Shown here: positions 16,322 to 33,524 of the stretch, one piece after another
Layout: each line of letters begins with the position of its first letter
How positions within the stretch are numbered: position 1 is the first letter of the stretch
DNA from: Melioribacter sp.
GTDB taxonomy: Bacteria > Bacteroidota > Ignavibacteria > Ignavibacteriales > Melioribacteraceae
DNA: 40,937 bases
Assembly (NCBI GenBank): GCA_003155655.1
Contig: PMDS01000035.1
Location: 1-40,937, forward strand
Reading direction: 5' to 3'
Position numbers and translations under genes: made by a program
The notes under the pieces: generated by a model
What the model was told of the DNA's origin: nothing
The model's input: the letters and a program-made list of their open reading frames with translations, nothing else
Database searches by the model: none

Positions 16322-17014
16322 TTAATTGCCGAGGGATTTCATCCTGTAACCAACTCCTGATGCTGTAATAATATATTTTGGCTGTGCAGCATCGTCCTCA
16401 ATCTTTTTCCTAATTTGTCCTATAAACACGCGCAGGTATTGCGAATCTTCGGTATGGGAAGGTCCCCAAATTTCTTTTAATACTAAATTGTGTGTTAATG
16501 TTTTATCAATATTTTTAAAGAAAAGCGATAATAGAAGGTACTCGGTATTTGTTAGCTTTAGTTCTTTATTGTTTTTATAGATGATTCTCTGCACAAAATC
16601 GATTTTTAATTTTCCATTAACAATTGAAACTTTATCATCAAGCTGTTGAGTTCTTCTGATATTAGCACGGATTCTAGCAACAAGTTCGGCAGAGTTAAAT
16701 GGTTTTGTAATGTAATCGTCTGCCCCAAGATCCAATGCTTTAACAATATCCTCTTCAGAGTTTTTTACTGTTAGAATTATAACGGGTACATTAGACCAGG
16801 AGCGGATTTCTTTTAGAACTGAAAAACCATTTTCATCGGGGAGTCCCAAATCTAATATTACAAGCTGGGGATGATAATTAGCGACGGCAACAATTCCGTC
16901 TTTACCTTTTGCCGCTTCAATAATCTTATAATCGGCAGCTTCAAGTGTAATTGATAAGATTTTCCTGATCTGTGCTTCATCGTCAATTATAACTATCGTA
17001 TTCTGGATTGCCAT
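16322..17014 (-). CDS. kdpE: KdpE potassium-responsive response regulator
   Basis: OmpR/PhoB-type regulator that activates kdp transcription. The receiver domain has the acidic pair at residues 11-12, phospho-acceptor Asp55 (LDLGLPD) and the switch lysine in KPFNSAELV. The C-terminal winged helix shows KdpE hallmarks: LTNTEYLLLSLF, LKEIWGPSHTEDSQYLRV and a terminal GVGYRM. The gene is the last of the kdp1 operon, seven bases after the histidine kinase stop. It is the natural candidate to bind the paired TTTAYA sites at 25875-25924, 31878-31927 and 33475-33524. Confidence 0.94.
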   Translation of the reverse strand: MAIQNTIVIIDDEAQIRKILSITLEAADYKIIEAAKGKDGIVAVANYHPQLVILDLGLPDENGFSVLKEIRSWSNVPVIILTVKNSEEDIVKALDLGADDYITKPFNSAELVARIRANIRRTQQLDDKVSIVNGKLKIDFVQRIIYKNNKELKLTNTEYLLLSLFFKNIDKTLTHNLVLKEIWGPSHTEDSQYLRVFIGQIRKKIEDDAAQPKYIITASGVGYRMKSLGN

Positions 17015-18553: not shown

Positions 18554-18588
18554 CGAGAACCATTACTGCAATTATTAATGGTGTATTA

Positions 18589-20619
18589 TTAAATCCAGTT
18601 AGCAATTGCAATGGAGGAAAGTTTTGAAATTGTATTAATTAGATTTCTTTGTTCAAGCAAAATTTCCTTATAATTAATCTTAAATCCAATCACACCGATA
18701 GTTCCGCCTGAAGGAAGTGAAAGCGGTGTGAAAAACCAAGATGTTTCAGAAAGATTATCGGTACCGCTTCCAGCCAATAAATTTTTATTAAATGCCCAAT
18801 CTGCAACGCCGCTCTCTTTGGCATCAAGCTGAATCCCTGAAGAGCTTTTTGACAAAACGCGCAGATTATTTTTTTCATCCTTAAGCATCATAATGCTGTC
18901 TGCTTTAACAAATTTGCCCAAATTATTAATAACTATTTTTGAAATTTCCTCTTGAACTGAAATATTAATCATTTTCATAACATTATCGCGCTGGCTGCCG
19001 GGATCTTCAAAATCCCTAAAAATTTCTTCGTGAAGGGGAATGTTCAAAAGCTCTTTGCTCAAATCTTCAATCAAGCTCAAACTTTCTATTCTCATCTTTA
19101 ATGCTGAAAACTGGTTCTTCGATTGATTTATCAATTGGCTCACCACAGCAGAGACAGCAAAGAATATTATTAAACTAATGAAATGCTCCGGTCTGTTTAC
19201 AGTGAAGCTAAATCTTGGATCGACAAAAAGAAAATCATAAGTTAAAACGCTCATTATGGATGTAAAAATTGCAGTGCCAAAGCCATAAAATATTGCCGAC
19301 GCTATTGGTGCAATAATAAAAATAATTTCATAGGAAGGGAGGAAAAAAATTTTTTCCAATATACCTACAACTATTGTAACCGGCACCAGACTGAGGAGAG
19401 AAAGTAAATAATTATTAATATTGAATCTCTTCTTGCTTCGTTTTATAGGTTCTGTTGCTCCGGGTTCATCCTTTTCGGAAAAAGGTGTAATAAGCTGAAG
19501 ATCGAATGAACTTTGGTCGTACATTAATTTAAACGTTGGAGATCTCTTTAAAAATTCGTGGAAAGGTGACTTGAGCGGTTTTCCAATCAAAACTCTTGTA
19601 ATATTTTTATCTCTGGCAAAATTTATTATTTCATCAGCAATATCCGATCCCGAGAGAGTATATATTTTCCCTCCTAATTTTTCGGCAAGATTCAATGCGT
19701 CGGATAGGTATACCTGCTCTTTCTTCGATAATGTTTTTAATTTAGGAGTAGCTACATAAACAGCGAACCACTCTATTCCAGCATCATAAGCAGCGTTGTA
19801 CGCCCTGCGTACAATCTGTTTTGAAAAAGGGCTTGGTGAAATGCACACCATAATTTTATCAACGACATGCCAGGGGTTGTTTATGGCTCTGGACTTGATA
19901 TAATTTAAAAGTTCGCCATCTATTTTTGTTGCAACTTTTCGAAGCGTGATTTCACGTAGAGCGTTCAGGTTTCCTTTACGGAAAAAATTTTGAATTGCGC
20001 GCTGAGCCTGTTCTGCAACATAAATTTTTCCCTCTTTAAGTCTGAGGAGAAGCTCTTCAAGAGGAATATCAATAAGTTTAACCTCATCAGCTTCATCCAG
20101 GATGCTGTCGGGAATTGTTTCCCGGACTCTGACCCCGGTTACTTGAGCAATAATATCGTTTTGACTTTCGAAGTGTTGAATATTAATCGTAGTTAAAACA
20201 TCTATTCCGTGTTCCAAAATTTCTTTAATATCAAGATAACGTTTCGGATGACGGCTTCCCGGAGAGTTTGTGTGAGCTAATTCGTCGACAATTACAACCT
20301 GTGGATTTCTTTTTAAAATTGCATCAACGTCCATCTCCTCAAGAACCATTTCTTTATATTGAAGTTGATGCCGGGGAATAATTTCAAGTTTATCAAGAAG
20401 TGCATTGGTCTCATCTCTTTTGTGAGTTTCAACGTAACCCACTATTACATCGAATCCCCTTTTTTTAAGGGCATGGGCTTCTATCAGCATAGAATAAGTT
20501 TTGCCAACGCCCGGCGCATAACCAAGAAATATTTTTAGCTTGCCCCCTTTTGTTTCCGCGCGATTGATCTCGGATAAGAGAGCATCGGGGTCGGGGCGGC
20601 GTTCTTCCAGATCATCCAT
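18589..20619 (-). CDS. kdpD: KdpD sensory half without kinase domain
   Basis: Residues 1-235 are the KdpD N-terminal domain with Walker A GYAPGVGKT (33-41) and the conserved VIVDELAHTNSPGSRHPKR near 110. Residues 250-370 are a universal-stress-protein-like domain. Four membrane helices follow near 400-500 (DUF4118, with LTYDFLFVDPRFSFTV). The last 150 residues resemble a GAF domain and stop there: no histidine box or ATPase domain is present. At 676 residues it is shorter than full KdpD (about 890). Together with the protein at 17021-18553 the kinase is split, with membrane bundle and GAF present in both halves. It may act as a sensing partner of the kinase half. Confidence 0.92.
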   Translation of the reverse strand: MDDLEERRPDPDALLSEINRAETKGGKLKIFLGYAPGVGKTYSMLIEAHALKKRGFDVIVGYVETHKRDETNALLDKLEIIPRHQLQYKEMVLEEMDVDAILKRNPQVVIVDELAHTNSPGSRHPKRYLDIKEILEHGIDVLTTINIQHFESQNDIIAQVTGVRVRETIPDSILDEADEVKLIDIPLEELLLRLKEGKIYVAEQAQRAIQNFFRKGNLNALREITLRKVATKIDGELLNYIKSRAINNPWHVVDKIMVCISPSPFSKQIVRRAYNAAYDAGIEWFAVYVATPKLKTLSKKEQVYLSDALNLAEKLGGKIYTLSGSDIADEIINFARDKNITRVLIGKPLKSPFHEFLKRSPTFKLMYDQSSFDLQLITPFSEKDEPGATEPIKRSKKRFNINNYLLSLLSLVPVTIVVGILEKIFFLPSYEIIFIIAPIASAIFYGFGTAIFTSIMSVLTYDFLFVDPRFSFTVNRPEHFISLIIFFAVSAVVSQLINQSKNQFSALKMRIESLSLIEDLSKELLNIPLHEEIFRDFEDPGSQRDNVMKMINISVQEEISKIVINNLGKFVKADSIMMLKDEKNNLRVLSKSSSGIQLDAKESGVADWAFNKNLLAGSGTDNLSETSWFFTPLSLPSGGTIGVIGFKINYKEILLEQRNLINTISKLSSIAIANWI

Positions 20620-20690: not shown

Positions 20691-21020
20691 TTAAGTTCTT
20701 GGAGCATAATATATTATACAAACACCTATTACCGCAACAACCGCACCGATGATGTCATACTTATCCGGTGTATAATTATCAATTTTATATGCCCATAAAA
20801 GGGACATCACAATAAATATTCCCCCATACGTTGCATATACCCTTGCAAAGTTTGAGCTCTGCAAGGTTGCCACAACACCGTAAAGAGCTAGAATTATACC
20901 GCCAGCCAAACCGAACCATAAAGGTTTACCATCTTTTAACCAAAGCCATATAAGATAGCCGCCGCCAATTTCGCAAAAGCCAGCAAGTATAAAAATTAAA
21001 GCTGAACGTAATACTTCCAT
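20691..21020 (-). CDS. YnfA-family small membrane protein
   Basis: About 109 residues with four hydrophobic helices and the family marks [35 protein letters not shown] and [13 protein letters not shown] (UPF0060/YnfA, small multidrug-resistance-like fold). Its biochemical role is not settled; some members have been linked to small drug or cation efflux. I choose the ATG at 21020, which gives the usual short N-terminus; the frame continues to a TTG at 21044. It lies between kdpC and the KdpD sensory half, about 70 bases from each, so it probably rides in the kdp1 transcript. Confidence 0.87.
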
Positions 21021-21087
21021 AATGGTTTTATTCCGGCTTAACAAAAACTTTGGTTAAAGATGATCTCTCGATTTGAACTTGCGATCA

Positions 21088-21660
21088 TCATATTTTATCC
21101 AATTCCAGATTTAACAAAAGAACATTAACAACGGCATTACCTAAAAAGCCGAATTGAGGCTTCTCGGTCAAAGAATCAACAAGAAGATACAGCTTATCTT
21201 TTTTAGATTGATCGAAATTTCTAGCCTTTGAAACTCTTTCCACCTGCAAAATAGCAGATACCGGGGAAATATGCGGATCCACTCCGCTGGCTGAGGCAAA
21301 AAACATTTCGTTGGGAATTGACGTAGTATCAACAACAGAATTTTTTAAAATAAAATTCTTTCTCTTATCGTCGTAAAATTTTTTCAATGCCGCGCTTGTC
21401 GGTCCAAGATTGCTGCCGCCTGAAGGTGCCGGGTTATAATCAACCGCGGATGGGCGCGACCAAAAATACTTATCGCTCTCGAATTTCTGTCCGATCAGTT
21501 CCGAGCCTAAAACCTTGCCGTCTTTTTCAATCAAGCTGCCGGATGCTTTACCTGGAAAAACAATCATTGAAACTGCACTGATAAATAGCGGGTAGATCAA
21601 CCCGGTAACAATAGTTATGGCAACAAAGTATTTTATAGTAATTAAAAGTTGTTTTTTCAT
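21088..21660 (-). CDS. kdpC: KdpC, K+-ATPase subunit C (kdp1)
   Basis: Single-helix subunit that stabilises the KdpFABC potassium pump and assists ATP binding. One membrane helix near residues 10-35, then the conserved GSLIEKDGKVLGSELIGQKF, YFWSRPSAVDYNP, FFASASGVDPHISPVSAILQ and a C-terminal VNVLLLNLELD. The 190-residue length is normal, unlike its paralogue at 26269. It starts 29 bases after the kdpB stop. The assignment is firm. Confidence 0.94.
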   Translation of the reverse strand: MKKQLLITIKYFVAITIVTGLIYPLFISAVSMIVFPGKASGSLIEKDGKVLGSELIGQKFESDKYFWSRPSAVDYNPAPSGGSNLGPTSAALKKFYDDKRKNFILKNSVVDTTSIPNEMFFASASGVDPHISPVSAILQVERVSKARNFDQSKKDKLYLLVDSLTEKPQFGFLGNAVVNVLLLNLELDKI

Positions 21661-21689: not shown

Positions 21690-23795
21690 TTATATCAATC
21701 CAATTGAAGTTATTAATAAGTCAATCAATTTTATTCCTATGAACGGCACTATCAATCCTCCAACTCCATAGACCCAAATATTTCTTCTTAAGATTGCCGC
21801 TGCTCCCTTAGGTCTGTATTTTACACCTTTAAGAGCCAACGGAATTAAAAGAACAATTATTAATGCATTAAAAATAACGGCACTAAGAATAGCGCTTTGA
21901 GGTGTTGCAAGTTTCATTATATTAAGGGCAGATAGAGGACCATCTGTTAAATGAGTTGCGTAAAGGAAAGTTGATATTGCAGGGATGATCGCAAAATATT
22001 TTGCAACATCGTTTGCAATGCTGAATGTTGTAAGAGCGCCGCGGGTCATTAATAACTGCTTGCCTATTTCCACAACTTCAATCAGCTTTGTAGGGTTGCT
22101 GTCAAGGTCAATCATATTTCCGGCTTCCCGTGCTGCCTGAGTTCCGCTGTTCATTGCAATTCCCACATCTGCTTGTGCAAGCGCCGGCGCATCGTTAGTT
22201 CCATCGCCTATCATTCCTATCATTCTGCCGCCGGTCTGTTCCTCGCGTATTCGTTTTAATTTATCTTCCGGTTTAGCCTCAGCAATAAAATCGTCAACGC
22301 CCGCTTCAGCGGCAATTGCTGTTGCTGTAAGTGAATTGTCGCCGGTGATCATGATTGTTTTGATACCCATCTTTCTTAATTGCGCAAACCGTTCTTTGAT
22401 TCCGCCTTTTACAACATCTTTAAGCTCAATTACACCGAGCACTTTAAAATTTTCGGCAACAACAAGTGGGGTGGAACCTGCTTTGGAAAAATCGTTTACG
22501 ATCTGTTGAACTCCGGAGTTAAATACCCCGCCGTTACTTTCCACATAATTTTTTATAGCATCTGCCGAACCTTTGCGAATAATTCTTTTTGCTTTACCGC
22601 TCGAAGGATGATTTATATCCACCCCGCTCATTCTCGTCTGGGCGGTGAACGGAATAAAATGCGCATCCAATTTTGAAATGTCTCTTCCTCTCAATCCGAA
22701 TTTTTCTTTAGCCAGAACAACAATGGATCTTCCCTCGGGGGTTTCATCGGATAGAGATGAGAGCTGTGCTGCGTCTGCTAAATATTCAACTGATACATCA
22801 CTTACAGGAATGAACACCGAAGCCATTCTGTTGCCTAAAGTTATTGTACCTGTTTTATCAAGAAGCAAAACATCTATATCGCCTGCGGCTTCCACTGCGC
22901 GCCCGCTCATTGCAATAACATTATGTCCTAATAATCTATCCATTCCGCTGATACCGATTGCGCTTAATAATCCGCCGATTGTAGTAGGAATCAAACAAAC
23001 TAAAAGTGCAACAAGTACCGGCACAGAAACAATTTCACTAACATTCACAGAACCTGTCTGATTGTATTCAATAAAAACTCTTATTGTTAGAACAACAAGT
23101 AAAAACACCAGGTTGAATCCTGCGATAAGAGTTGATAATGCAATTTCATTAGGGGTTTTTTTACGTTTTGCACTTTCAACAAGAGAAATCATTTTGTCTA
23201 AATAAGTTCCGCCCGGATCGGCAGAAATTCTAATAACTATTCTATCGCTGATTACTTTTGTTCCGCCTGTAACAACGCTTCTGTCTCCGCCGCTTTCACG
23301 AATAACGGGAGCAGATTCACCGGTTAATGCAGATTCATCTATACTTGCCGCACCTTCTGTAACCTCTCCGTCGGAAGGAATAATATTTCCCGCTTCGCAA
23401 ACAACAAGATCGCCGGTTCGAAGCTCTATAGCCGGCACGTTCACTTCCTTGCCGTTAACTAACTTTCTTGCAATGGTAAGAGTGCGGGTTTTCCGGAGAT
23501 TTTCTGACTGTGCTTTTCCTCTTCCTTCGGCGACAGCTTCCGCAAAATTGGCAAACAGTACAGTGAACCAGAGCCAAATAATTATTTGCAGGTTGAATCC
23601 GGAAAAAGTGCCCATGAAAATATTTTTAAAAAAGAAGATTGTAGAAAGAAGAGCTCCTACAGCTACGATAAACATAACCGGATTCTTAACTAAGGACTTA
23701 GGATTAAGTTTCTTAAAAGAATCTATTACCGCCTGGATAATAATTTTTTTATCGAAAAGTTTTCTATTATAAGATTTATTTGAGTTCATTTTCAT
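21690..23795 (-). CDS. kdpB: KdpB, K+-ATPase catalytic subunit (kdp1)
   Basis: P-type ATPase subunit that hydrolyses ATP to drive K+ uptake. The phosphorylation site is [11 protein letters not shown] (Asp313), the actuator motif is [10 protein letters not shown] (155-164), with [10 protein letters not shown] in the membrane and [12 protein letters not shown] and [19 protein letters not shown] in the P domain. Seven or so membrane helices and 701 residues fit the family. Two ATGs two codons apart can start it; the AGGA site is better spaced for the second. It is followed by kdpC and preceded by kdpA with short gaps. Confidence 0.96.
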
Positions 23796-23816: not shown

Positions 23817-25511
23817 TTAAAAAGTTATTCCCTGTCCCATAAGCAGATGTTCGAGTACCGGACCGAACGACAATGCAGGGAAGAAAGTTAAAGCTCCTAC
23901 TATTAGAATAACGCCCAATAACAATATACCGAACAGTAAATTTTCCGTAGAGAGAGTACCGGAAGATGAAGGCGTAATGTTTTTCTTAACTAAACCGCCT
24001 GCAATAACCATTACCGGGATGATCGCGCCGAATCTAGCGATGAACATTGTCAGGGCTAACATTAAATTCCAGAAAACCGTATTTGCATTTAAACCGGCAA
24101 ATGCGCTTCCGTTGTTACCAGCAGCTGAAGAAAAAGCATAAAGTATTTCAGAATAACCGTGAGGTCCTGCATTAGCGAGGCTGGATAATCCTGCAGTCGT
24201 TTTCATAGCGATTGCAGAAAAGATAAGTATACATGCACTTGGCAATAGTATTGCTATTATAGACCATTTTACTTCCCGCGATTCAATCTTTTTTCCCAAA
24301 TATTCGGGAGTTCTTCCTATCATCAATCCCGCAATAAAAACAGTTAGAAATACAAAAAGTAACATTCCGTAAAGACCGCAGCCGTTACCGCCGAATATAA
24401 TTTCCCCGAGTTCCATATTAAACATTGTGATCATTCCTGCAAGCGGCGATAAACTGCTGTGCATTGCATTAACCGAACCGTTTGATGCCGCTGTTGTTGC
24501 AGTGGACCAGAGAACGCTGTTCGCAACTCCGAAGCGGACTTCTTTTCCTTCCATCAATCCGCTTGTATTAAAGATTGGATTGGTAGAATACTCCGCGTAA
24601 ACCGAGACTGACAATCCGACAACAAAAAGGAAAAGCATAACTCCGTAGATCACCCATGCATGTTTTTTCGAGCCGATCATTCTGCCGAATGTAAAAACTA
24701 AAGATGCAGATATTAAAAGTATTCCAAGCACCTGAATGAAATTTGAAAATGGTGTTGAATTTTCGAATGGGAACGCGCTGTTAACATTGAAAAATCCGCC
24801 GCCGTTCGTTCCCAACATTTTTATTGCTATCTGCGATGCTGCCGGACCCAATGGAATTACCTGTTTAGCTCCTTCAAGCATTGTTACTTCTTTATAAGAG
24901 GAAAAAGTTTGTACAACTCCCTGGCTGACTAATACTAAAGCCCATATTATAGCCAGAGGCAAAAGTATATAAACCGTTGAGCGGGTTAAGTCCACCCAGA
25001 AATTTCCAAGTGTAGTTCCTTTTCTTGTTTTCAGTGCGCGGATTAAAACCAGCAAAACAGCAATTGCAGTTGCAGCGCTTACAAAATTTTGAACGGTTAA
25101 TCCAATCATCTGAACAAAATAACCGAGCGTTGTTTCACCGCCATACGACTGCCAGTTAGTATTTGTTACAAAACTGACTGCTGTGTTTATTGCAAGAGTT
25201 ATCTCAACGTTCGGAAGCCCTTGAGGATTTAAAGGCAGATAAGATTGTATTAGTTGAATGACTACCAAAAAAATTATTCCAAAGAAATTAAAAGCCATTA
25301 AAGCGAAAGTATAAACCTTCCAATCCATTTCTTCTGAAGGATTAATTTTGGAAACTTTATAAATAACAGATTCAAGCTTTCCGAATACCGGGGTTAGAAA
25401 AGTTTTCTCGCCCTTTAATACTTTTGCGAAGAATCCGCCTAAGAGCGGTGCGAGCGCCGTTAATACAACTATGTAAAAAACCAGTTGAATTATTTCATGT
25501 ATAGTTATCAT
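23817..25511 (-). CDS. kdpA: KdpA, K+-ATPase channel-like subunit (kdp1)
   Basis: Membrane subunit that binds and selects K+, related to four-repeat potassium channels. The four filter-like segments are visible: FVTNTNWQSYGGE, LGTNGGGFFNVNSAF, FGGNGCGLYGML and SAAGNNGSAFAGL. About ten hydrophobic helices and 564 residues match the family. An AAGGTGAT site precedes the ATG by five bases. It follows the tiny kdpF and begins the pump proper of kdp1. Sequence similarity to the paralogue at 29554-31350 is obvious but well short of identity, with different third-filter residues (GGNGCG here, GGKGVG there). Confidence 0.96.
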   Translation of the reverse strand: MITIHEIIQLVFYIVVLTALAPLLGGFFAKVLKGEKTFLTPVFGKLESVIYKVSKINPSEEMDWKVYTFALMAFNFFGIIFLVVIQLIQSYLPLNPQGLPNVEITLAINTAVSFVTNTNWQSYGGETTLGYFVQMIGLTVQNFVSAATAIAVLLVLIRALKTRKGTTLGNFWVDLTRSTVYILLPLAIIWALVLVSQGVVQTFSSYKEVTMLEGAKQVIPLGPAASQIAIKMLGTNGGGFFNVNSAFPFENSTPFSNFIQVLGILLISASLVFTFGRMIGSKKHAWVIYGVMLFLFVVGLSVSVYAEYSTNPIFNTSGLMEGKEVRFGVANSVLWSTATTAASNGSVNAMHSSLSPLAGMITMFNMELGEIIFGGNGCGLYGMLLFVFLTVFIAGLMIGRTPEYLGKKIESREVKWSIIAILLPSACILIFSAIAMKTTAGLSSLANAGPHGYSEILYAFSSAAGNNGSAFAGLNANTVFWNLMLALTMFIARFGAIIPVMVIAGGLVKKNITPSSSGTLSTENLLFGILLLGVILIVGALTFFPALSFGPVLEHLLMGQGITF

Positions 25512-25531: not shown

Positions 25532-25627
25532 TTAAAATTTTTCGGGTTTAATTAATGTGTAAACCACGTACACAAAAAGAGCCAATGCTACTATCAATGT
25601 AAGAACCAGTTCAAATGTACTTTCCAT
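25532..25627 (-). CDS. kdpF: KdpF-like single-helix peptide (kdp1)
   Basis: A 31-residue ORF starting MESTFELVLTLIVALAL and ending VVYTLIKPEKF. It is a single membrane helix with the C-terminal KPEKF typical of KdpF, the small lipid-like stabiliser of the Kdp pump. GGAG lies five bases before the ATG, and it ends 20 bases before kdpA. It begins 12 bases after the stop of another tiny ORF. It has a close homologue at 31641-31739. Confidence 0.8.
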   Translation of the reverse strand: MESTFELVLTLIVALALFVYVVYTLIKPEKF

Positions 25628-25639
25628 TTTATCTCCAAA

Positions 25640-25726
25640 TTATTGTTTGTATTTACTTGTTTTATAAAATCTAAATGCCATGTAAAAAAGCAGTAATAAT
25701 AAAACTATTAGAATAATTATATCCAT
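25640..25726 (-). CDS. 28-residue membrane peptide, copy 1
   Basis: A tiny ORF of 28 residues: a very hydrophobic helix (MDIIILIVLLLLL) then FYMAFRFYKTS and a basic tail. A GGTGAG ribosome-binding site is five bases before the ATG; an in-frame ATG four codons upstream overlaps that site. It leads the kdp1 transcript. The same peptide, with near-identical DNA, leads kdp2 at 31752-31838. Its position before kdpF and its conservation argue for expression. The function is unknown; a second KdpF-like subunit or a leader role are both possible. Confidence 0.65.
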   Translation of the reverse strand: MDIIILIVLLLLLFYMAFRFYKTSKYKQ

Positions 25727-25742
25727 CTTACTCACCATTTAA
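25656..25742. repeat. Leader block shared with kdp2 (copy 1)
   Basis: About 85 bases match 31768-31854 with three mismatches. The block covers most of the 28-residue ORF and its ribosome-binding site. Flanking sequence on either side diverges abruptly. Confidence 0.85.
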
Positions 25743-25874
25743 AATTTTAAGAATATTAAAATTAGATTTGAACTTTGATTTCGCCAAGGTTTTGCCGGCT
25801 ATCAAAAAATTATTTACCTGATTGTCCATTTATTAAAAACTATATTTTTCTTAGTTAAAATTAGTTTTTAGTTT

Positions 25875-25924
25875 ATAAAGTGGCTGTAAATTAATGAGTT
25901 AGAAGTATAAAGATTTTATAAAGA
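25875..25924 (-). promoter_or_regulatory. Paired KdpE-box-like operator, kdp1
   Basis: In transcription direction the distal pair is CTTTATAAAATCTTTATA (25924-25907) and the proximal pair is TTTACAGCCACTTTATA (25891-25875). Half-sites TTTAYA recur every 11 bases within a pair; the pairs start 32 bases apart. The same layout is found at 31878-31927 and 33475-33524. The E. coli KdpE site is, as I recall, TTTATA and TTTACA half-sites with the same 11-base period. It lies about 150 bases before the first tiny ORF. Confidence 0.75.
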
Positions 25925-26268
25925 GGCTTAGTATTTCTGTGATATTTTATAGCCGAAGCCTTGAATTTGAAAAAATGGCAAAATTTAGCTACAAGGTGTT
26001 TTAATCTTTCATTACGCGAATATAGTTCCTATAGTCGAAGACATAACTTACAATCAATCTTTTACATTCCTTAAAAACGAATAAACAGCGCCTAAATAAA
26101 TCTCTTTTCTGATTTCACGCGAGCGAATTTCCAGGTTGCAGCAAGATGAAAAAATCTGTTGTTTTGAGAACTAGATACCTAATTTCAAAAACAACCTCAT
26201 CAACGAGAATTTTACCGGCGCCGATCATTCATTCTATAAATTTAAAACATTTATTCCTACCTAACATA
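25925..26268. other. Intergenic region between kdp2 and kdp1
   Basis: No intact gene is seen on either strand between the kdpC2 stop and the kdp1 operator. It is AT-rich. The only recognisable trace is a possible beta-barrel protein tail on the minus strand near 26072-26140. No convincing terminator follows kdpC2, so kdp2 transcripts could read toward kdp1. Confidence 0.5.
26072..26140 (-). pseudogene. Possible degraded beta-barrel C-terminus
   Basis: On the minus strand the frame gives REIRKEIYLGAVYSF, close to the porin ending ILIGAVYSF. Removing one A from an A-run near 26073-26077 would place a TAA directly after the phenylalanine. Upstream, another frame gives LAATWKFAR, also barrel-like. 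DNA at 26071-26110 aligns with the 3' end of the porin gene at 6251. It would lie upstream of the kdp1 operator just as the intact porin lies upstream of the kdp2 operator. Short and frameshifted, hence tentative. Confidence 0.3.
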
Positions 26269-27285
26269 CTACTGCGGTTTTCCAAAATGATTTCGAAGGT
26301 CAAGATTTACTTGAAGAACATTGACCATCTTCTCTCCCGCCAATCCAGCGAGAGGAGCAAATGAATTCTTTTCCAGAATATCTTCAACTTCATTACGTAC
26401 TTCAACAGGGCTCCGTTTCAGGTCGGCTGCCCACTTTGAAGAAACACGGTCAAGCTGATAGTTCGCATTCTGCATTGTGATATGGGGATCAAGACCGGAG
26501 GCAGACGTGGTGACCAAATCGCCTGGAATATCCTGTAAGTTTACGTTAGGATGATCCTGCCGCCACATATCAAAAAAGATTGATTGGATATCGGAACCGG
26601 TGTTGACAGGTTTGATTACCAGTACAGTTTTATGGTTAGCTCCGGTATCAGTCATTACAGAAAGAAACTTGCCGGGATTGCCATTTGAAAAACTTTGGAA
26701 GAATGTTGTTGCAAGGTCTGTAGGCGCCGGTTGCGGCGTGTTTGGATTATCCTTTACAAATTTAGCTACTAAATCGGCATGCACCTTTGCCCAATCCGCA
26801 ACATAGGCTGTGTGCAATGAATCCGTGCTAACCCATGCCTGTGCTAAAGAAGGATGATTGCCAGCCCACTGGCTAACGATATGTCCGGCTCCCTGGAATA
26901 TATCTTGGTGGAACCAACTTTCGATATCATGAGCAACAAGTTGTCCGGCTTTTGCACCGTCAGCGTATCTTACTATCGGACCAAGTGTGGATGCGACACG
27001 GTTGCGCAAAGCATAGTTGGAAGCCGCCAAAGCTGATGATGATGATGCAGTGCCGTTGAAACCCGCTGCGGATGGACGAGGTTGGAAATATTCGTCCTTC
27101 GTGAATGGCTGTGAGATGAGCAATGAGCCGACAGGCTTGCCATCCGGACCATTCACTATGCTTCCGTTTGCCTGGAATGGAAAGAATACCTGTCCAACCA
27201 CTAATAATACAAGTGGAAAAATCACGCAGCAGATGACAACTGCGAATAACAGAAGCAAAAAACTTTTTGAAATAATTTTAGACAT
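26269..27285 (-). CDS. kdpC: KdpC with large internal insertion (kdp2)
   Basis: The ends are KdpC: a membrane helix (residues 7-34), GSIVNGPDGKPVGSLLIS, YFQPRPSAAGFNGTASSSS, then near the C-terminus TTSASGLDPHITMQNANYQL and MVNVLQVNLDL. Between about residues 105 and 255 there is an insertion of roughly 150 residues not present in the 190-residue kdp1 KdpC, rich in Ala, Trp and polar residues (SWFHQDIFQGAGHIVSQWAG, DIQSIFFDMWRQDHPNV). The chosen ATG (27285) is eight bases after GAGG; an ATG two codons earlier is too close. Longer KdpCs occur in some other phyla; the role of the insert is not known to me. Confidence 0.9.
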   Translation of the reverse strand: MSKIISKSFLLLLFAVVICCVIFPLVLLVVGQVFFPFQANGSIVNGPDGKPVGSLLISQPFTKDEYFQPRPSAAGFNGTASSSSALAASNYALRNRVASTLGPIVRYADGAKAGQLVAHDIESWFHQDIFQGAGHIVSQWAGNHPSLAQAWVSTDSLHTAYVADWAKVHADLVAKFVKDNPNTPQPAPTDLATTFFQSFSNGNPGKFLSVMTDTGANHKTVLVIKPVNTGSDIQSIFFDMWRQDHPNVNLQDIPGDLVTTSASGLDPHITMQNANYQLDRVSSKWAADLKRSPVEVRNEVEDILEKNSFAPLAGLAGEKMVNVLQVNLDLRNHFGKPQ

Positions 27286-27312
27286 TTTCATATCCTCTAT
27301 TTTTATTAAACC

Positions 27313-29481
27313 TTAACTCACTAAGTGAAAAAATACCATGAACATATCGATCAGCTTGATGCCGATGAACGGTAATATGACACCGCCGAGTCCCCAATTA
27401 AATAAGTTTCTCTTGAGGAGTTCGTCGGCACCCATGATGCGGTACTTAACCCCTTTAAGAGCAACCGGAATCAATGCGGGAATAATCAAAGCATTGAAAA
27501 TCACGGCGGATAAAATTGCGGATGTCGGCGAATGCAGGTTCATTATGTCTATAGCCTTCAACCACGGCAGCGTGCCTGCAAAAAGTGCAGGTATGATTGC
27601 GAAGTACTTTGCAACGTCGTTTGCTATCGAAAAAGTGGTTAAAGCGCCGCGGGTTATCAAAAGCTGTTTCCCGATATGAACAACTTCAAGCAATTTCGTC
27701 GGATCGCTGTCTAAGTCAACCATATTAGCAGCTTCCTTTGCTGCCTGGGTTCCTGCATTCATCGCCAATGCGACATCAGCTTGAGCAAGAGCCGGCGCGT
27801 CATTCGTTCCGTCGCCCATCATGGCAACAAGTTTTCCCCCGGCTTGTTCTTTTCTTATAAACTCGAGTTTTGTTTCCGGCGTAGCTTGTGCGAGATAATC
27901 ATCAATACCAGCCTGTGCAGCAATGAAAGCTGCAGTTATAGGATTATCTCCTGTGATCATTACTGTCTTTATTCCCATCTTTCTCAGCTGATCAAAACGC
28001 TCTTTCATATTAGGCTTAAGTATATCCTCAAGAGAAATCACGCCAGCCACATGCGAATCGTCTGTTACAACTAAAGGAGTTGCGCCCTTTCTCGCGACAT
28101 CGGTAACTATCGAATTAATCTCCGGGGGAACCGTACCATGATTATCCCGAACAAATTGCAACACTGAATCCGGCGCTCCTTTTCGTATCTGTCTTCCGCC
28201 TGAAAAGTCTATGCCGCTCATACGAGTCTGTGCGGTAAATGGCACAAACACAGAGTCTGCCGGCACATTAATCGGATCTTTGCTTAGCTTTTCATAAAGC
28301 TTTACTATGCTTTTGCCTTCCGGCGTTTCATCGGCAGCAGATGCCAGTGCAGCAAGACGCGCCAGGTCGGACTCTTTGTATCTTCCAACGGGTAAGAATG
28401 CTGTTGCATGCCGATTTCCAAGTGTGATTGTTCCGGTTTTGTCAAGCATAACTACATCTATATCGCCTGCAAGTTCAACTGCCTTTCCGCTTTTTGATAT
28501 TATATTTGCTTGCATTGCCCGATCCATTCCGGCAATTCCAATTGCAGCAAGCAACGCCCCTATAGTTGTTGGAATAAGACAAACGAGAAGAGCAATCAGA
28601 GTCGGCACATCCGTACCTAGACTCTTCAAAGGGTCAGAAATTCCGAGGTAGCCAGCCATATATTGTTCAGCATTCCACGCCATTGGCCAAAGTGGAATAA
28701 CAACAATTAAAAAGATCAATGTGAATGCCGAGAGGACAAGTGTTAGAGCAATCTCATTAGGACTGCGCTGGCGGATGGCACCTTCAACGAGAGCAATCAT
28801 CCTATCAAGAAACGATTCCCCGGTACCGCTAGTTATTTTTACGACAATCTTATCAGAGAGTAGAAAAGTTCCACCGGTCACTCCAGATGCGTCGCTATTA
28901 GCAGCTCGAATTACCGGAGCTGATTCGCCTGTAATTGCCGATTCATCAACCGATGCAATACCCTCAATAATCTCGCCATCGCCTGGAATCATTTGTCCGG
29001 CTTTCACTACGACGCGGTCGCCGGGCTTAAGTTCTGTTGAGGAAACTTGCTCAACGGCTCCAGCAGCAGACAACCGATATGCTATCGTGTCGCGGCGTGC
29101 TTTCCTCAGAGAATCTGCCTGTGCTTTGCCTCTTGCCTCTGCAAGAGCAGTCGCAAAGTTAGCAAACAACACGGTGAGAAAAAGCCATACTGTAAGTGCA
29201 ATGAAGTATGTAATTGGCACCTGGCTTACTTGACTGCCGAATGCCGCCGCCAGCACATACAGAAGCGTTAATATTGCGCCAACCTCCACAACGAACATTA
29301 CGGGATTCTTCCACTGGAAGTCTGGGCGCAGCATTATAAATGATTGCTTCAACGCAGAAATTGCGGTCTTTTTCTCAAGCAGCGCTCTCCCTTTAACCCG
29401 GTGCGGCGGCTTTTTTATTTTTGAAGAAAGGGTTCCTGCAATCTCTTCTACATTTTGTACTTTATTTTGAATTTCACTCAT
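27313..29481 (-). CDS. kdpB: KdpB, K+-ATPase catalytic subunit (kdp2)
   Basis: Second catalytic subunit, 722 residues, with all P-type marks: [52 protein letters not shown] and [19 protein letters not shown]. It carries an extra N-terminal stretch of about 20 residues compared with the kdp1 copy. GGAG lies six bases before the ATG. A homologous 60-base line has about 50% GC (28501-28560) against 40% in kdpB1 (22921-22980), supporting a separate origin. No damage is seen, so it should be functional. Confidence 0.96.
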
Positions 29482-29553
29482 TTTTAACTCCTTAAGACTT
29501 ATTTATCACAAATTCTTTTTTCTATGTCTGATCTATGAAATTGCATTGTTTTC

Positions 29554-31350
29554 TTACCCGCCAAATGGAATTGGTCCTAAATGTTCAGCCAATGGTCCAA
29601 GCACAGCAATCGGAAGAAAGAGCAACGCGCCTACAATAAGAATTGTACCCAATAAGAGAAATGCGAAAGTGGTTGTATCAGTTCGCAAAGTTCCAAGGCT
29701 ATAAGGGCTTGTCTTCTTTCTACCTAGAAACGCAGCCATTGCGACCGGGGCGATTATCGGGAGAAAGCGACTAATCAACATTACAATTCCTGTAGCAATA
29801 TCCCATGCTGCTGCTTCAGGAGCGGGATTCGGGTTATTGTAGGCTCCATAAGTGACCCCCAAACCGTCAAAAGCTGAACCGTTATTTGCAGACGCAGAAG
29901 AAAACTGATAAAACATCTGTGAAAGTCCATGTGGACCGGGGTTGCTAACGGCTTTCATTCCCCAATCAGTTGCTGCAAATATTCCTGTTGGCAAGAGAAT
30001 CATAAGAGGATGAATCAAGAGTGCGATGACCGCCAACTTGACTTCTTTTGCCCCAATCTTCTTCCCAAGGTATTCCGGAGTTCGCCCAACCATCATGCCG
30101 GCGATAAATATCCCGATTATTATATAGAGAAGCATGTTAATCATGCCGACTCCTTTTCCTCCAAAAACACAATTCAGCCACATCCCGACCATCGGTGATA
30201 AAGCCGCAAGTGGATTCAAGCTGTCATGCTCGGCATTTACAGCACCGCAAGTCACATCTACAGTCGTCGCAGCATAAGTTGCACCTGCGGATGTTCCGAA
30301 GCGCATTTCTTTACCTTCGAGATTGCCTAAATGCTGATCAACCGGCAAACCTGCTACTGCGGGTAATGTCACCAGGCGCTTTCCATCGGGAGACGAAGCG
30401 CTCTGGACATCATATGTCCGCGCTATGGAGTTACTGGTGAATGCCGGGTTAGGTGAATATGTATCGAAAACGATCGACCAAACATAAGTGCCAGCCATAA
30501 GAAATATCATCACAGAAAATATTACATAAGCATGGCGCATTTTTTTCAGCATACGGCCGAACATCAGTACAAGCGCAAACGGGAATAGCATCATCGATAG
30601 TGTGTTGAAATAATTTGAAAGTGCCGTCGGATTCTCGTATGGATGTGCAGAATTCATTCCAAAGAAACCGCCTCCGTTTGTGCCAAGCATCTTGATTGAC
30701 TCAACTGCCGCTACGGGTCCTGTAATGATACTCTGCTGATTAGATTCAAGACCTGTAACCTGATAGACGCTCTCAAGAGTCATCGGACTTCCCTGTGTGA
30801 TGAAGATAACGCTAACGACAAACGCAACCGGTATGAACATGTAAATCAATACACGCCACATGTCGAGGAAGAAATTTCCCAGATGTGAATCGCTTCTTAG
30901 AGCCCGTATGATTGCCGTCAAAGCACACAAACCAATTGCAGCCGACATGAACATATTTGATATGTCAAAGAAAATCTGGCTGAAGTTGGAGAAATGTTGA
31001 TCTCCGGAATAGTGCTGAAGATTTGTATTCGTCATGAACGAAATAACGCTATTGAAAATCGCGCTCGGCGCTATCATCGGACGATGCAATGGGTTCAGCG
31101 GCATCCATTCCTGAAGCGCAAGAACAATAAAGCCGAAGATGAACAGTGCAATATTGAAAATCAGCAATGACCCAACATACTGTTTCCAGTTTTGCTGTCC
31201 ACTGTCCAGCCGATTCTCAAACCACGCAAAAATCTTGAGTGGTTTATACTCACCATTCATGATTCTTGCCATGTAGCGACTTAGCGGGAAAGCTAAAAGC
31301 GTTGCAGAGGCGAGCAGGAGAACCGGTAAAAACCAAATTTGAAAAGTCAT
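29554..31350 (-). CDS. kdpA: KdpA, K+-ATPase channel-like subunit (kdp2)
   Basis: 598 residues with about ten hydrophobic helices. Filter-like segments are FMTNTNLQHYSGDQ, LGTNGGGFFGMNSAH, FGGKGVGMINML and SASANNGSAFDGL. The first and third segments differ from the kdp1 copy (NLQHY for NWQSY, KGVGM for NGCGL). The chain is 34 residues longer, mainly in an external loop around residues 305-345 (SPDGKRLVTLPAV region). GGAG is eight bases before the ATG. It follows its own small kdpF. Confidence 0.95.
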   Translation of the reverse strand: MTFQIWFLPVLLLASATLLAFPLSRYMARIMNGEYKPLKIFAWFENRLDSGQQNWKQYVGSLLIFNIALFIFGFIVLALQEWMPLNPLHRPMIAPSAIFNSVISFMTNTNLQHYSGDQHFSNFSQIFFDISNMFMSAAIGLCALTAIIRALRSDSHLGNFFLDMWRVLIYMFIPVAFVVSVIFITQGSPMTLESVYQVTGLESNQQSIITGPVAAVESIKMLGTNGGGFFGMNSAHPYENPTALSNYFNTLSMMLFPFALVLMFGRMLKKMRHAYVIFSVMIFLMAGTYVWSIVFDTYSPNPAFTSNSIARTYDVQSASSPDGKRLVTLPAVAGLPVDQHLGNLEGKEMRFGTSAGATYAATTVDVTCGAVNAEHDSLNPLAALSPMVGMWLNCVFGGKGVGMINMLLYIIIGIFIAGMMVGRTPEYLGKKIGAKEVKLAVIALLIHPLMILLPTGIFAATDWGMKAVSNPGPHGLSQMFYQFSSASANNGSAFDGLGVTYGAYNNPNPAPEAAAWDIATGIVMLISRFLPIIAPVAMAAFLGRKKTSPYSLGTLRTDTTTFAFLLLGTILIVGALLFLPIAVLGPLAEHLGPIPFGG

Positions 31351-31388
31351 TTTCTAAACTCCTTTTGTTTTAATTTCGGATGCTTCAT

Positions 31389-31469
31389 TTAAAACTTTTC
31401 CGGTCTTAAAAGCGCAACGACCAGATAAACGAAAAGAAACAACGCAACAACTGCAGTTAAATAAATCAT
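31389..31469 (-). CDS. kdpF: KdpF, canonical form (kdp2)
   Basis: A 26-residue ORF, MIYLTAVVALFLFVYLVVAL followed by LRPEKF, the classical KdpF pattern of one helix plus RPEKF. GGAG lies eight bases before the ATG. It ends 38 bases before kdpA2. A different frame through the same DNA also opens, but only this one gives a KdpF-like peptide. Confidence 0.82.
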   Translation of the reverse strand: MIYLTAVVALFLFVYLVVALLRPEKF

Positions 31470-31492
31470 TTTTCATCTCCTTTTTCTTTAAA

Positions 31493-31594
31493 TTAGATTT
31501 TCTCACAGGCTTCCATGAAGAGATAACATAACCCCATCAGGACGAGGCCGAGGAAAAACATTGCTGGTAACCAGAATAAGAGATTCATTTCCAT
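31493..31594 (-). CDS. 33-residue membrane peptide of kdp2
   Basis: A tiny ORF: MEMNLLFWLPAMFFLGLVLM then GLCYLFMEACEKI. One long hydrophobic helix with a short acidic and lysine end. GGAG six bases before the first ATG supports that start over the one two codons later. It ends 23 bases before kdpF2. I recall similar short ORFs upstream of kdp genes in other phyla, but I cannot name a family. It is absent from the kdp1 leader. Confidence 0.6.
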   Translation of the reverse strand: MEMNLLFWLPAMFFLGLVLMGLCYLFMEACEKI

Positions 31595-31640
31595 TTGAGA
31601 CTCCTTTTTTATTTTGCTGAATCATTTCATACTTAATTAT

Positions 31641-31739
31641 CTATTTGGATTTTCCCGGTCTTATAAATGTATAAACTTGATATACAATTAGAGCGACCAG
31701 GGCGACTAATGAAAGCGCTATTTCAAAATTGTCTTCCAT
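31641..31739 (-). CDS. KdpF-like peptide, second copy in kdp2
   Basis: A 32-residue ORF, MEDNFEIALSLVALVALIVY then QVYTFIRPGKSK. It aligns with the kdp1 KdpF (MExxFE, VYxVYT, I+P+K) much better than with the canonical KdpF of its own operon. It follows the 28-residue ORF by 12 bases, the same arrangement as in kdp1. The ribosome-binding site is weak (AGAAAAAAG). It looks like the native kdpF left in a duplicated leader. Confidence 0.65.
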   Translation of the reverse strand: MEDNFEIALSLVALVALIVYQVYTFIRPGKSK

Positions 31740-31751
31740 ACTTTTTTCTGC

Positions 31752-31838
31752 TCATGATTTATAGCGGCTTGTTTTATAAAATCTAAAGGCCATGTAACAA
31801 AGCAGTAATAATAAAACTATTAGAATAATTATATCCAT
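31752..31838 (-). CDS. 28-residue membrane peptide, copy 2
   Basis: Paralogue of 25640-25726: the same MDIIILIVLLLLL helix and YMAFRFYKTS, with one F to C change and a slightly different basic end. The same GGTGAG site lies five bases before the ATG. It lies 40 bases after the kdp2 operator and leads the transcript. Function unknown. Confidence 0.65.
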   Translation of the reverse strand: MDIIILIVLLLLLCYMAFRFYKTSRYKS

Positions 31839-31854
31839 CTTGCTCACCATTTAA
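31768..31854. repeat. Leader block shared with kdp1 (copy 2)
   Basis: Matches 25656-25742 over about 85 bases with three mismatches, ending abruptly just before the ribosome-binding site region. It suggests recent duplication or gene conversion. Confidence 0.85.
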
Positions 31855-31877
31855 TGAGTGAAACATAGTTGATGATT

Positions 31878-31927
31878 TATAAACTATCTGTTAAAATGAA
31901 ACCGTTTTGTGTAAAGATTTTATAAGC
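31878..31927 (-). promoter_or_regulatory. Paired KdpE-box-like operator, kdp2
   Basis: In transcription direction: distal GCTTATAAAATCTTTACA (31927-31910) and proximal TTAACAGATAGTTTATA (31894-31878). Half-sites again have an 11-base period and the pairs a 32-base offset. It is slightly more degenerate than the kdp1 and 33-kb copies. It lies 40 bases before the first tiny ORF and 42 bases after the porin stop. Confidence 0.7.
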
Positions 31928-31968
31928 GACCATTGTTTTGAGCATAATTTTATTTTCGTACTTTTTCA

Positions 31969-33057
31969 TTAGAAAGAAACAACCGTGCTTATTAATAAAG
32001 TGTTCTGGTCTGTTCTTGAGTTAATATTGTTCGCATCATCAAAAGCTTTAACATTTGACCAATCTCTTCTGTATTCCAGGCGCACCAGTAAATTTTCAAA
32101 AAATTTGTGCTCATATGTAAAAGTGATTTCCTTTAAATCCTGCACTGTCCCGGTAGTAAAGCCGTAAGGATCGCTATAAATTTCGCCTCTTAATGCAAGT
32201 GAAGAAGTTCCGGTCAGAGAATATTTTCCAATAACTGCAGCGCCTTTCCAAATTGCCATATCACCATTCGGTTGTTTTTCAAATCCATAATCGGCATTAA
32301 AAAAAAGGGCGACCTTATCAGATACCGTTAAGTTTATGATTGTATCGAATACATGCCTAGCATTCGATGAAACCGAATCCGGTTCTTCAATACCGCCAAT
32401 CCAATTTTCAGTTATTGTCAAATTGCTCGAAGGTGTCCAGGAGAGGGTTGCGCCCAGAGTTTTATATTTATTGTTGTCCTGCATAATGTTCCATCCGTTA
32501 TAGACGTATCCTGTAAACGATAAATTATCAGTCACGGGATAAGCGGCGCATATACCGACATGATAATATGGGACTGCATATGCAAACAAAAATGATCTAC
32601 TGTAATTAGGATTTGAACTTGATTCGATTACCTCGGCGCCCATATGAGTAACCATTTTTCCTACATTAATAGTTAAGCCCTTACCGATAGGAAGTACCAC
32701 GGTGATTAAGGCTTGTTGTAAAAAATTTAAGGATTTATTCTGTTCAGCGCTTTGAACGATATCTGCGGTAGTTCCGTAAGCAAAATCTAATTTAAACCCT
32801 AATGGGGAAGCCGGTTTTTGAATTGTAAGTTTTGCCAGGCTTATGTTAAACTGATTTTCCGTTACGTCAAAATTTCTGTATTTATTTATTGAATTTGCCG
32901 GTGATGCAAAATTCTTAGAAAAATAAACATCTACAAAACCGTTTATTGTTGTTTTAGTTGAATCGGTTGAGCTCTGTGAATAAATGACAGAAGTATTAAT
33001 TATTACAACCGAAAAGAGGACAACTAAGTTTGTGTATGTAAAATACTTGCTCTTCAT
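31969..33057 (-). CDS. BBP2-type porin of the potassium island
   Basis: Signal peptide at about 1-28 (LVVLFSVVIINTSVIYSQ), then a beta-barrel ending in VVSF. It is a clear paralogue of the protein at 6251-7354: KYRNFDVTENQFNISLAKL, GKMVTHMGAEVIESSSNPNY, SRSFLFAYAVPYYH and LEYRRDWSN recur. It is 362 residues. It follows the small membrane protein by 52 bases and precedes the kdp2 operator, so it is probably driven by the operator at 33475-33524. An outer-membrane route for K+ or another ion taken up by Kdp is an inference from context. Confidence 0.83.
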   Translation of the reverse strand: MKSKYFTYTNLVVLFSVVIINTSVIYSQSSTDSTKTTINGFVDVYFSKNFASPANSINKYRNFDVTENQFNISLAKLTIQKPASPLGFKLDFAYGTTADIVQSAEQNKSLNFLQQALITVVLPIGKGLTINVGKMVTHMGAEVIESSSNPNYSRSFLFAYAVPYYHVGICAAYPVTDNLSFTGYVYNGWNIMQDNNKYKTLGATLSWTPSSNLTITENWIGGIEEPDSVSSNARHVFDTIINLTVSDKVALFFNADYGFEKQPNGDMAIWKGAAVIGKYSLTGTSSLALRGEIYSDPYGFTTGTVQDLKEITFTYEHKFFENLLVRLEYRRDWSNVKAFDDANNINSRTDQNTLLISTVVSF

Positions 33058-33109
33058 GTTTAGCCTATTTTTATTAATAATTAGTTAAATGTTCAATTAG
33101 TAATTGCAG

Positions 33110-33430
33110 CTATTTCTTAAATGCGTTTCTTATAACAAAGAATAAAATGTATAGTGCATAAAAAATTACAAGCATTATTGCCGGGATAAATAAATCCAGA
33201 TAGATAATCGACAGCACGAATGACGGCACTGCTTTTAAATATTGCGGCAAGTCTGTAAAATATGCAGCATATTTTTCAGGACGACTACTTGCCAAAATCA
33301 AAGAGATTACAAACCAGACTCCGTAAATAATAGCAGATAGTTTCAGAATATTTTTCCGCAAGAATATTTTTGATTTTATCATATCAAAGTTGCCGGATTG
33401 ATTATTAATTGTATTGAATAATTGTTCCAT
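33110..33430 (-). CDS. Small membrane protein of unknown function
   Basis: 106 residues, no family recognised. The N-terminal 28 residues are polar; hydrophobic helices follow near 29-47 (LKLSAIIYGVWFVISLILA) and 68-100 (FVLSIIYLDLFIPAIMLVIF and on), separated by SSRPEKYAAYFTDLPQYLKA. The short SRPEKY stretch recalls the end of KdpF, which may be chance. The first ATG has only a weak ribosome-binding site; a second at residue 17 is possible. It is the first gene after the operator at 33475-33524 and is probably co-transcribed with the porin. Confidence 0.65.
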   Translation of the reverse strand: MEQLFNTINNQSGNFDMIKSKIFLRKNILKLSAIIYGVWFVISLILASSRPEKYAAYFTDLPQYLKAVPSFVLSIIYLDLFIPAIMLVIFYALYILFFVIRNAFKK

Positions 33431-33474
33431 AAAGATCTCTCGTAAAAATTCTGGCGTTAAATTAACTTCCAGAA

Positions 33475-33524
33475 TATAAAGGGGCTGTAAAATGGTTTAT
33501 GGATATTATAAAGATTCTATAAAG
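33475..33524 (-). promoter_or_regulatory. Paired KdpE-box-like operator, porin unit
   Basis: In transcription direction: distal CTTTATAGAATCTTTATA (33524-33507) and proximal TTTTACAGCCCCTTTATA (33492-33475). It has the same 11-base period and 32-base offset as the two kdp operators, and shares GGGCTGTAAA / GTGGCTGTAAA wording with kdp1. It lies 45 bases before the start of the 106-residue membrane protein. Confidence 0.73.

Follow-up and report, generated by a model that had tools for sequence, protein, structure and literature searches.

A predicted two-pair KdpE operator, set at a fixed distance from the -7/-10 element, at potassium-uptake promoters of Melioribacter sp. and distant bacteria

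Introduction

A 40,937-nucleotide contig of Melioribacter sp. (PMDS01000035.1, assembly GCA_003155655.1; Bacteroidota, Ignavibacteriales), the whole of which is called the window here, encodes two Kdp potassium pumps, a porin and a 106-residue membrane protein, and pairs of TTTAYA-like half-sites stand at three of its promoters. The locus raises the question of which regulator reads these sites, how it might reach RNA polymerase from them and how far the arrangement extends beyond this cluster. A preliminary description, made from the sequence alone, had read them as the operators of a local K+ regulon controlled by the response regulator KdpE. The analysis reported here leads us to assign a probability of about three in four to the reading that they are KdpE activator sites with a fixed layout of four half-sites, at which two dimers would bind in response to K+ limitation, the promoter-proximal one recruiting RNA polymerase much as PhoB does.

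According to the sections of the literature drawn on here and below, KdpE of Escherichia coli recognizes two half-sites, TTTATA and TTTACA, of 6 base pairs (bp) each and 5 bp apart, its footprint spans -72 to -50, and the KdpE-specific residue R193 together with R200 and T215 is required for binding (PMC3264566). Two phosphorylated KdpE molecules (KdpE-P) per promoter appear in the model of PMC3938482. The protein is listed as a single-target regulator (PMC8249747), and Kdp has been named the sole K+ transport system under strong transcriptional control (PMC3610689). KdpE of Staphylococcus aureus acts on many virulence genes (PMC3610689), and a mycobacterial motif has no noticeable similarity to the others (PMC5401905). 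Nowhere in the consulted portions of the open-licence literature, a body that excludes the 1992 E. coli footprint and 2014 KdpE-DNA crystal papers, did we see a second pair for KdpE described.

Results

Scored against TTTAYA over the 24 positions of their four half-sites, the three sites follow a single layout when read on the minus strand, TTTAYA-N5-TTTAYA-N15-TTTAYA-N5-TTTAYA, with half-sites at offsets 0 and 11 (the distal pair) and 32 and 43 (the proximal pair):

25922-25874, minus strand: operator 1, TTTATA/TTTATA/TTTACA/TTTATA, 0 mismatches in 24, upstream of kdp1
31926-31878, minus strand: operator 2, CTTATA/TTTACA/TTAACA/TTTATA, 2 mismatches in 24, upstream of kdp2
33523-33475, minus strand: operator 3, 0 mismatches in 24, upstream of the gene for the 106-residue protein (unk106) and the porin gene

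All three sites noticed earlier are present, directed along the minus strand toward their genes, with coordinates one or two bases off those first given; the 11-base period and the 32-base offset between pairs are exact at each (3/3), as had been claimed. The half-sites are, as stated there, the TTTATA and TTTACA of E. coli KdpE, and they form the two TTTA(T/C)A direct repeats with a 5-bp spacer by which its operator is defined (PMC3264566). The likeness extends to the position upstream of a kdp operon and to a KdpE of the OmpR/PhoB family, whereas the E. coli kdpFABC operator has one described pair, TTTATA-N5-TTTACA, and the window operators have two full pairs. Because two pairs stand at each of three promoters, in place of one site with two half-sites, we regard the architecture as a variant of the KdpE operator. 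It also differs in reach from the single target listed for E. coli KdpE (PMC8249747), since the three promoters include those of a second pump and a porin.

Throughout the 4.62-Mb genome the three operators are the sole matches at up to two mismatches; exactly three mismatches bring in three further places, on a par with a backwards control pattern, which gives four matches at up to three. When the window was dinucleotide-shuffled 100 times, no shuffle contained a match with three mismatches or fewer, and a pattern with a 16-base gap instead of the actual 15 found nothing. When the operators are compared pairwise, 21-24 of the 24 half-site positions are identical and merely 2-4 of the 15 gap positions; since the gaps are unrelated while the half-sites agree, the half-sites are what is kept. 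The leaders of kdp1 and kdp2 share 76% identity over 212 bp, so operators 1 and 2 are perhaps not wholly independent of each other.

Conservation was followed across 164 genomes of the order Ignavibacteriales, with the backwards pattern as control and with tests that ignore relatedness. Allowing 0-1 mismatches, the search gives 12 sites, spread over 11 genomes, versus 2 control matches, and every one of the 12 has kdp or kdpD genes no more than about 2.6 kb away. A close KdpE (E-value at most 1e-70) is encoded in 22 of the 164 genomes, among them 10 of the 11 with such a site (Fisher 2e-9, uncorrected for phylogeny); in the eleventh, G105, the contig stops within kdpD. A lack of sites upstream of kdp in relatives had been named as a finding that would undo the earlier reading; the sites are in fact kept there. 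Both pairs occur at up to two mismatches upstream of the operon at 11 of 16 loci with a kdp1-type KdpA (at least 62% identity), and the other five (G097, G109, G118, G070, G058) have partial versions. At 14 contrast loci with a distant KdpA (43-47% identity to KdpA1) a full site was found in none, the best having 7-9 mismatches in 24; one of them, L062, has one pair only, with 1 mismatch.

Six further loci of the order (L104, L105, L106, L095, L225 and L226, in G145, G148, G038, G098, G094 and G095, genomes with no kdpA match, several of them incomplete assemblies) encode KdpD-kinase/KdpE pairs. Three adjoin a relative of the K+ importer KimA, one also has TrkH/TrkA genes, and four carry the operator at up to two mismatches. 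KimA relatives (top Protein Data Bank (PDB) match 6s3k, which is KimA; E-values 6e-60 to 2e-61) stand divergent beside operators in G098, G105, G145 and G148. At the six loci KdpDE apparently serves other K+ importers.

Beyond the order, the exact pattern was sought in one genome from each of 84,980 species, and the loci were annotated by similarity to window proteins, Pfam and PDB sequence search. The scan returned 22 loci, 19 of them near K+ genes (Kdp, TrkH, Kup, KimA, BBP2 porin or KdpDE); four (L066, L073, L076, L081) belong to order genomes already counted (G104, G023, G105, G098). The operator lies ahead of kdpA at L066, L072, L073, L075 and L076, and ahead of kdpD/kdpE at L065, L070, L078, L080, L083 and L086. 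Elsewhere kdpD comes further on, behind TrkH (L067) or a KimA relative (L069, L074), or with the operator beside a divergent KimA relative (L081). Following kdpE, the operator precedes Kup at L068 and a BBP2 porin at L085, a member of the Bacteroidia. TrkH stands behind it with kdpDE not in view at L071 and L084, and no K+ gene was seen at L077, L079 and L082. One locus is labeled Latescibacterota (L070) and another is from Craterilacuibacter (L072), a betaproteobacterium. The regulon had been called local; it is no local peculiarity, as the same architecture is widespread across distant bacteria. In a set of 198 Bacteroidota genomes, 9 sites at 0-1 mismatches fall in 7 genomes versus no control match, and 6 of these 7 are among the 17 with a KdpE at an E-value of at most 1e-60; four of the six are also in the order set, so that the two tests overlap. 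As a separate observation, L077, in the same genome as L083, repeats the kdpD promoter found at L083, with identity at 91 of 91 compared bases; the list of its open reading frames (ORFs) shows no evident K+ gene beside it, no family scan having been completed there, and it is perhaps an orphan promoter copy.

The third promoter can be judged by the company that its genes keep. A search of the order genomes with an alignment of unk106 and six relatives found unk106 in 7 of 164, all from the genus of the window. All seven have kdpA, and each time unk106 lies directly behind an operator (0-4 mismatches, weakest in G109). In G103 kdpA is present and unk106 was not found, and four genus members without a kdpA match also lack unk106, two of these being 66% and 72% complete. 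The order is operator, unk106, KdpF-like ORF, kdpA in G101, G104 and G107, and operator, unk106, BBP2 porin, kdpFABC in G108. In G109 the operator (4 mismatches), unk106 and a porin 74% identical to that of the window lie immediately upstream of a kdpFABC operon with a site of its own, and G105 has one operator ahead of a BBP2 porin and kdpFABC and a second ahead of unk106 and kdpD. From these recurring orders we conclude that unk106 and the porin truly belong to the kdp neighborhood. The operator is linked to both unk106 and a porin in G109, and to a BBP2 porin at L085. For the second pump type, one kdp2-type operon in G012 has a site with 2 mismatches, but no site turned up ahead of other kdp2-type operons in G012 and G024.

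A feature that the preliminary description had missed is the distance from the operator to the promoter. In each case a candidate -7 element begins at the same offset:

25856..25863, minus strand: -7 element TAATTTTA, of the TAnnTTTG type, offset 59 of operator 1
31860..31867, minus strand: -7 element TATGTTTC, offset 59 of operator 2
33457..33464, minus strand: weak -7 element TAATTTAA, offset 59 of operator 3

We hand-picked 34 sites with at most two mismatches from the matches (20 from the order and 14 from the species-wide scan, L084 being entered by its second site). Columns 59-65 read TAnnTTT across this collection, though the query patterns ended at 48, and TA stands precisely at 59 in 26 of the 34 sites and in 18 of the 20 from the order. 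The last half-site begins 16 bp ahead of the -7/-10 element (offset 43 versus 59), which places the proximal pair roughly at the position expected of a -33/-35 box. A joint displacement of proximal pair and -7 element by one base (31/42/58) is seen in G109 and G118, so the pair is phased to the promoter. Among the order sites, for which TTTAYA with two mismatches or fewer was the query, half-site 3 is TTTACA in 15 of 20 and half-site 4 is TTTATA in 14 of 20; the 14 species-wide sites cannot be used for this preference, as their query fixed both. Bacteroidota promoters have a -7 element TAnnTTTG with TTTG near -33 (PMC7366714). The operators share with these primary-sigma promoters the TAnnTTT at offset 59 and differ in having the proximal pair where the TTTG motif would be. 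The earlier reading was largely right, and too modest.

As a control for circularity, the distal pair (at most 1 mismatch) was chosen alone and exact TTTAYR half-sites were counted downstream, over offsets 18-60 for the order loci. With 15 of 30 kdpA loci of the order qualifying, half-sites fell at 32 (6), 43 (9) and 42 (2), with single ones at 20 and 56; in L041 the proximal pair had been taken as the first pair. A Pseudomonadota sample of 30 kdpA loci, drawn from 47 matching genomes in 150, gave 16 qualifying loci, with half-sites at 32 (3), 43 (3) and 44 (8) and at no other offset.

The same layout apparently recurs in E. coli itself. The kdpF promoter of MG1655 has TTTATA, TTTACA, TTTGCG and TTTGCA at 0/11/32/43 and TACCCT at 59; the second pair would lie at about -37 to -21 if the footprint begins 3 bp ahead of the first half-site. 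Nine records from a plasmid collection were also examined, out of 60 matches listed of 461 matching records, and those from Enterobacter, Duffyella, Proteus, Cupriavidus, Mycetohabitans and Azospirillum show the 0/11/32/43/59 layout to varying degrees, Azospirillum without half-site 3 and without TAnnnT. For these seven loci (E. coli and the six records), the distal pair was fixed in advance and TTTRYR served to score the half-sites. Summed pair mismatches come to 11 at offset 32; the runner-up offset has 29, and the mean is 52. The half-site at 43 departs from TTTRYR at 1 of 42 positions, and TAnnnT stands at 59 in six of the seven. About 10 of the 30 Pseudomonadota kdpA loci (L124-L153) show a three-half-site variant, with half-site 4 at 44 and no half-site 3, a CGTCTCGA- or ATCGCTCC-like stretch frequently taking its place.

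The presumed regulator is encoded in kdp1, as had been stated, at 16322..17014 on the minus strand. Its closest PDB match is E. coli KdpE (E-value 1.3e-55), with which it shares 88 identical residues (E. coli KdpE has 225), and the residues R193, R200 and T215 are retained as R195, R202 and T217. Of the 98 NCBIfam models that match it, the KdpE equivalog NF007820 is the top one. KdpD sensor domains, a KdpD kinase domain and an OmpR-type regulator are all present in the cluster, with KdpD spread over two genes. Judged from sequence, KdpE as the reader of the window sites is well supported.

Discussion

In the reading that we propose, the distal pair (0/11) is the counterpart of the site described in E. 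coli, and KdpD would phosphorylate KdpE under K+ limitation. Two KdpE dimers, separated by about three helical turns, could then occupy the same face of the DNA. The proximal dimer at 32/43, placed beside the -10 element as PhoB is, would be able to contact sigma and would recruit RNA polymerase, and the distal dimer would reinforce that recruitment. The targets switched on here would be the two Kdp pumps, the split KdpD and the KdpE of the kdp1 cluster, the BBP2 porin and the kdp-linked 106-residue membrane protein, and the same site would mark other K+ importers across Bacteroidota. The comparison with PhoB draws on its placement, as the pho box occupies the place of the -35 box. The window operators likewise consist of repeats at a fixed distance upstream of the -10/-7 element, where they replace the -35 box. 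PhoB and KdpE belong to the same OmpR/PhoB family and both use 11-nucleotide direct repeats, and PhoB brings in RNA polymerase via sigma70 (PMC4415409). The two differ in the half-site, CTGTCAT for PhoB (PMC4415409) versus TTTAYA here, and in the two pairs with a 15-bp gap.

Several results weigh against our reading. At up to two mismatches the order search is noisy, with 33 sites in 27 genomes versus 23 control matches in 21. Fifteen of the 27 have KdpE, and of the remaining 12, G096 and G105 have their site near kdp genes; the other ten have no kdp gene inside the 1.5 kb searched, and their sites look like chance. Seven of the 22 order genomes with KdpE lack a site at this threshold: G097 and G095 have one at 3 mismatches, as does G070, with a perfect distal and a poor proximal pair; G109 has one at 4 mismatches and in addition a perfect distal pair with the remainder shifted one base, as also seen behind the perfect distal pair of G118; G058 has the distal pair only, and no site was found in the 10.5 kb examined of G094. 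Across Bacteroidota, up to two mismatches gives 14 genomes versus 9 with control matches, and 11 of the 17 KdpE genomes lack a 0-1-mismatch site. At the loci examined for eight of these 11, G360, G433, G398 and G415 have a distal pair at 0-1 mismatch and a proximal pair at 2-3, G459 has the distal pair only, G467 has a single 4-mismatch site only, and G411 and G338 have no site. No distal pair with 1 mismatch or fewer exists at 14 of the 30 Pseudomonadota loci, and at about 10 half-site 3 is absent and half-site 4 lies at 44. TA stands precisely at 59 in just 8 of the 14 species-wide sites. No site was found at the Levilactobacillus, Synechococcus and Deinococcus loci (one each) that make up the rest of the nine plasmid-collection records, and the window KdpE scores under the NF007820 cut-off (215.9 versus 325 bits). 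In E. coli the proximal hexamers, TTTGCG and TTTGCA, are degenerate, and the published footprint spans the distal pair only (PMC3264566).

The last two points bear on the main rival explanation, that the distal pair alone binds KdpE, and that what sigma reads at the proximal pair is a core-promoter (-33/-35) or A/T-rich element resembling half-sites by coincidence. Such a view would fit the description of one recognition site with two half-sites, protected only at -72 to -50 (PMC3264566), the two KdpE-P per promoter of the published model (PMC3938482) and the better keeping of the distal pair at several Bacteroidota loci. The proximal pair nevertheless has the same hexamer and the same 5-bp spacer across lineages with differing core promoters, prefers TTTACA and TTTATA at half-sites 3 and 4 in the order, and differs from the TTTG -33 motif of Bacteroides (PMC7366714). 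We consider this explanation rather unlikely. Still less probable is that an OmpR-family response regulator other than KdpE uses the sites. Sequences resembling the KdpE query are plentiful, with 30 to 111 first-look candidates in each of the order genomes listed, and a few operators have no kdpDE in view (L071, L084); against this, the half-sites are identical to those of E. coli KdpE, the operator co-occurs with KdpE, and the KdpE-specific R193 is retained. Chance in A/T-rich DNA, or passive copying through duplication of a kdp leader, has very little to recommend it: the kdp1 and kdp2 leaders are alike, L077 copies L083 with no K+ gene seen beside it and backwards-control matches are common at 2 mismatches, but no window shuffle matched, sites at 0-1 mismatches outnumber controls (12 versus 2 in the order, 9 versus 0 in Bacteroidota), gaps diverge while half-sites agree, exact sites lie near K+ genes in several phyla, and the conservation results contradict it.

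With KdpE as the preferred reader, the sequence comparisons indicate that the two-pair operator is a widespread promoter architecture, a variant of the known KdpE operator, linking many K+ importers and a porin. Going further, and with less assurance, we lean toward the view that two KdpE dimers activate transcription from promoters with four half-sites and fixed -10/-7 spacing, an arrangement common to Bacteroidota and Proteobacteria, that the -35 region of the E. coli kdpFABC promoter contains a proximal pair that has gone unnoticed, and that the KdpE of Bacteroidota is a general regulator of K+ uptake (Kdp, TrkH, Kup, KimA and BBP2 porin) instead of one with a single target. If so, a second pair beside the -10 element would explain how a KdpE whose E. 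coli site lies at -72 to -50 reaches RNA polymerase, and the motif could be used to find K+ regulons across phyla. KdpE would also be linked to importers besides Kdp, in contrast to the review view that Kdp alone is under strong transcriptional control (PMC3610689). Finally, the BBP2 porin, possibly acting in K+ passage at the outer membrane, and the unknown membrane protein may have a role in K+ uptake.

Genes behind the operators

16322..17014, minus strand: kdpE, the presumed regulator
17021..18553, minus strand: KdpD C-terminal histidine kinase (split KdpD)
18589..20619, minus strand: KdpD N-terminal sensor (PF02702, DUF4118; Usp slightly under its cut-off; kinase domain not found)
20691..21044, minus strand: YnfA/UPF0060 family membrane protein within kdp1
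21088..21660, minus strand: kdpC1
21690..23795, minus strand: kdpB1, by similarity to the other kdpB
23817..25511, minus strand: kdpA1, by similarity to the other kdpA
25532..25627, minus strand: KdpF-like hydrophobic ORF of 31 residues directly ahead of kdpA1, named from size and position
26269..27291, minus strand: kdpC2, matched in two stretches and carrying a large insertion
27313..29481, minus strand: kdpB2 (TIGR01497)
29554..31350, minus strand: kdpA2 (TIGR00680)
31969..33057, minus strand: BBP2 beta-barrel porin (PF07642, E-value 1.8e-80, 271.2 bits versus a gathering score of 26.2)
33110..33430, minus strand: unk106, hydrophobic protein of 106 residues, with no match in Pfam or NCBIfam

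Operator 1 is followed by small ORFs including the KdpF-like one and then by KdpA, KdpB, KdpC, the YnfA-family protein, the KdpD N-terminal part, the KdpD kinase and KdpE, and operator 2 by KdpA2, KdpB2 and the KdpC with insertion. The leaders of the two operons, for which a ydaO-type riboswitch was considered and rejected (no Rfam match at gathering score, seven sources), each contain a hydrophobic ORF of 32 residues (25640-25738 and 31752-31850) that is 90% identical between them and was apparently duplicated along with its surroundings. The KdpD of kdp1 (17021-20619) is divided between two genes, one for a non-kinase sensor and one for a histidine kinase, and neither product reaches the NCBIfam KdpD equivalog cut-off; G109 (L090) has a KdpD N-terminal protein followed by an 882-residue KdpD. 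The insertion in KdpC2 separates two conserved halves, and relatives in G012 (L096) and G360 (L190) align with it over the full length. The YnfA/UPF0060 protein sits between kdpC1 and kdpD, and G360 (L190) has a weak relative of 107 residues between kdpB and kdpD.

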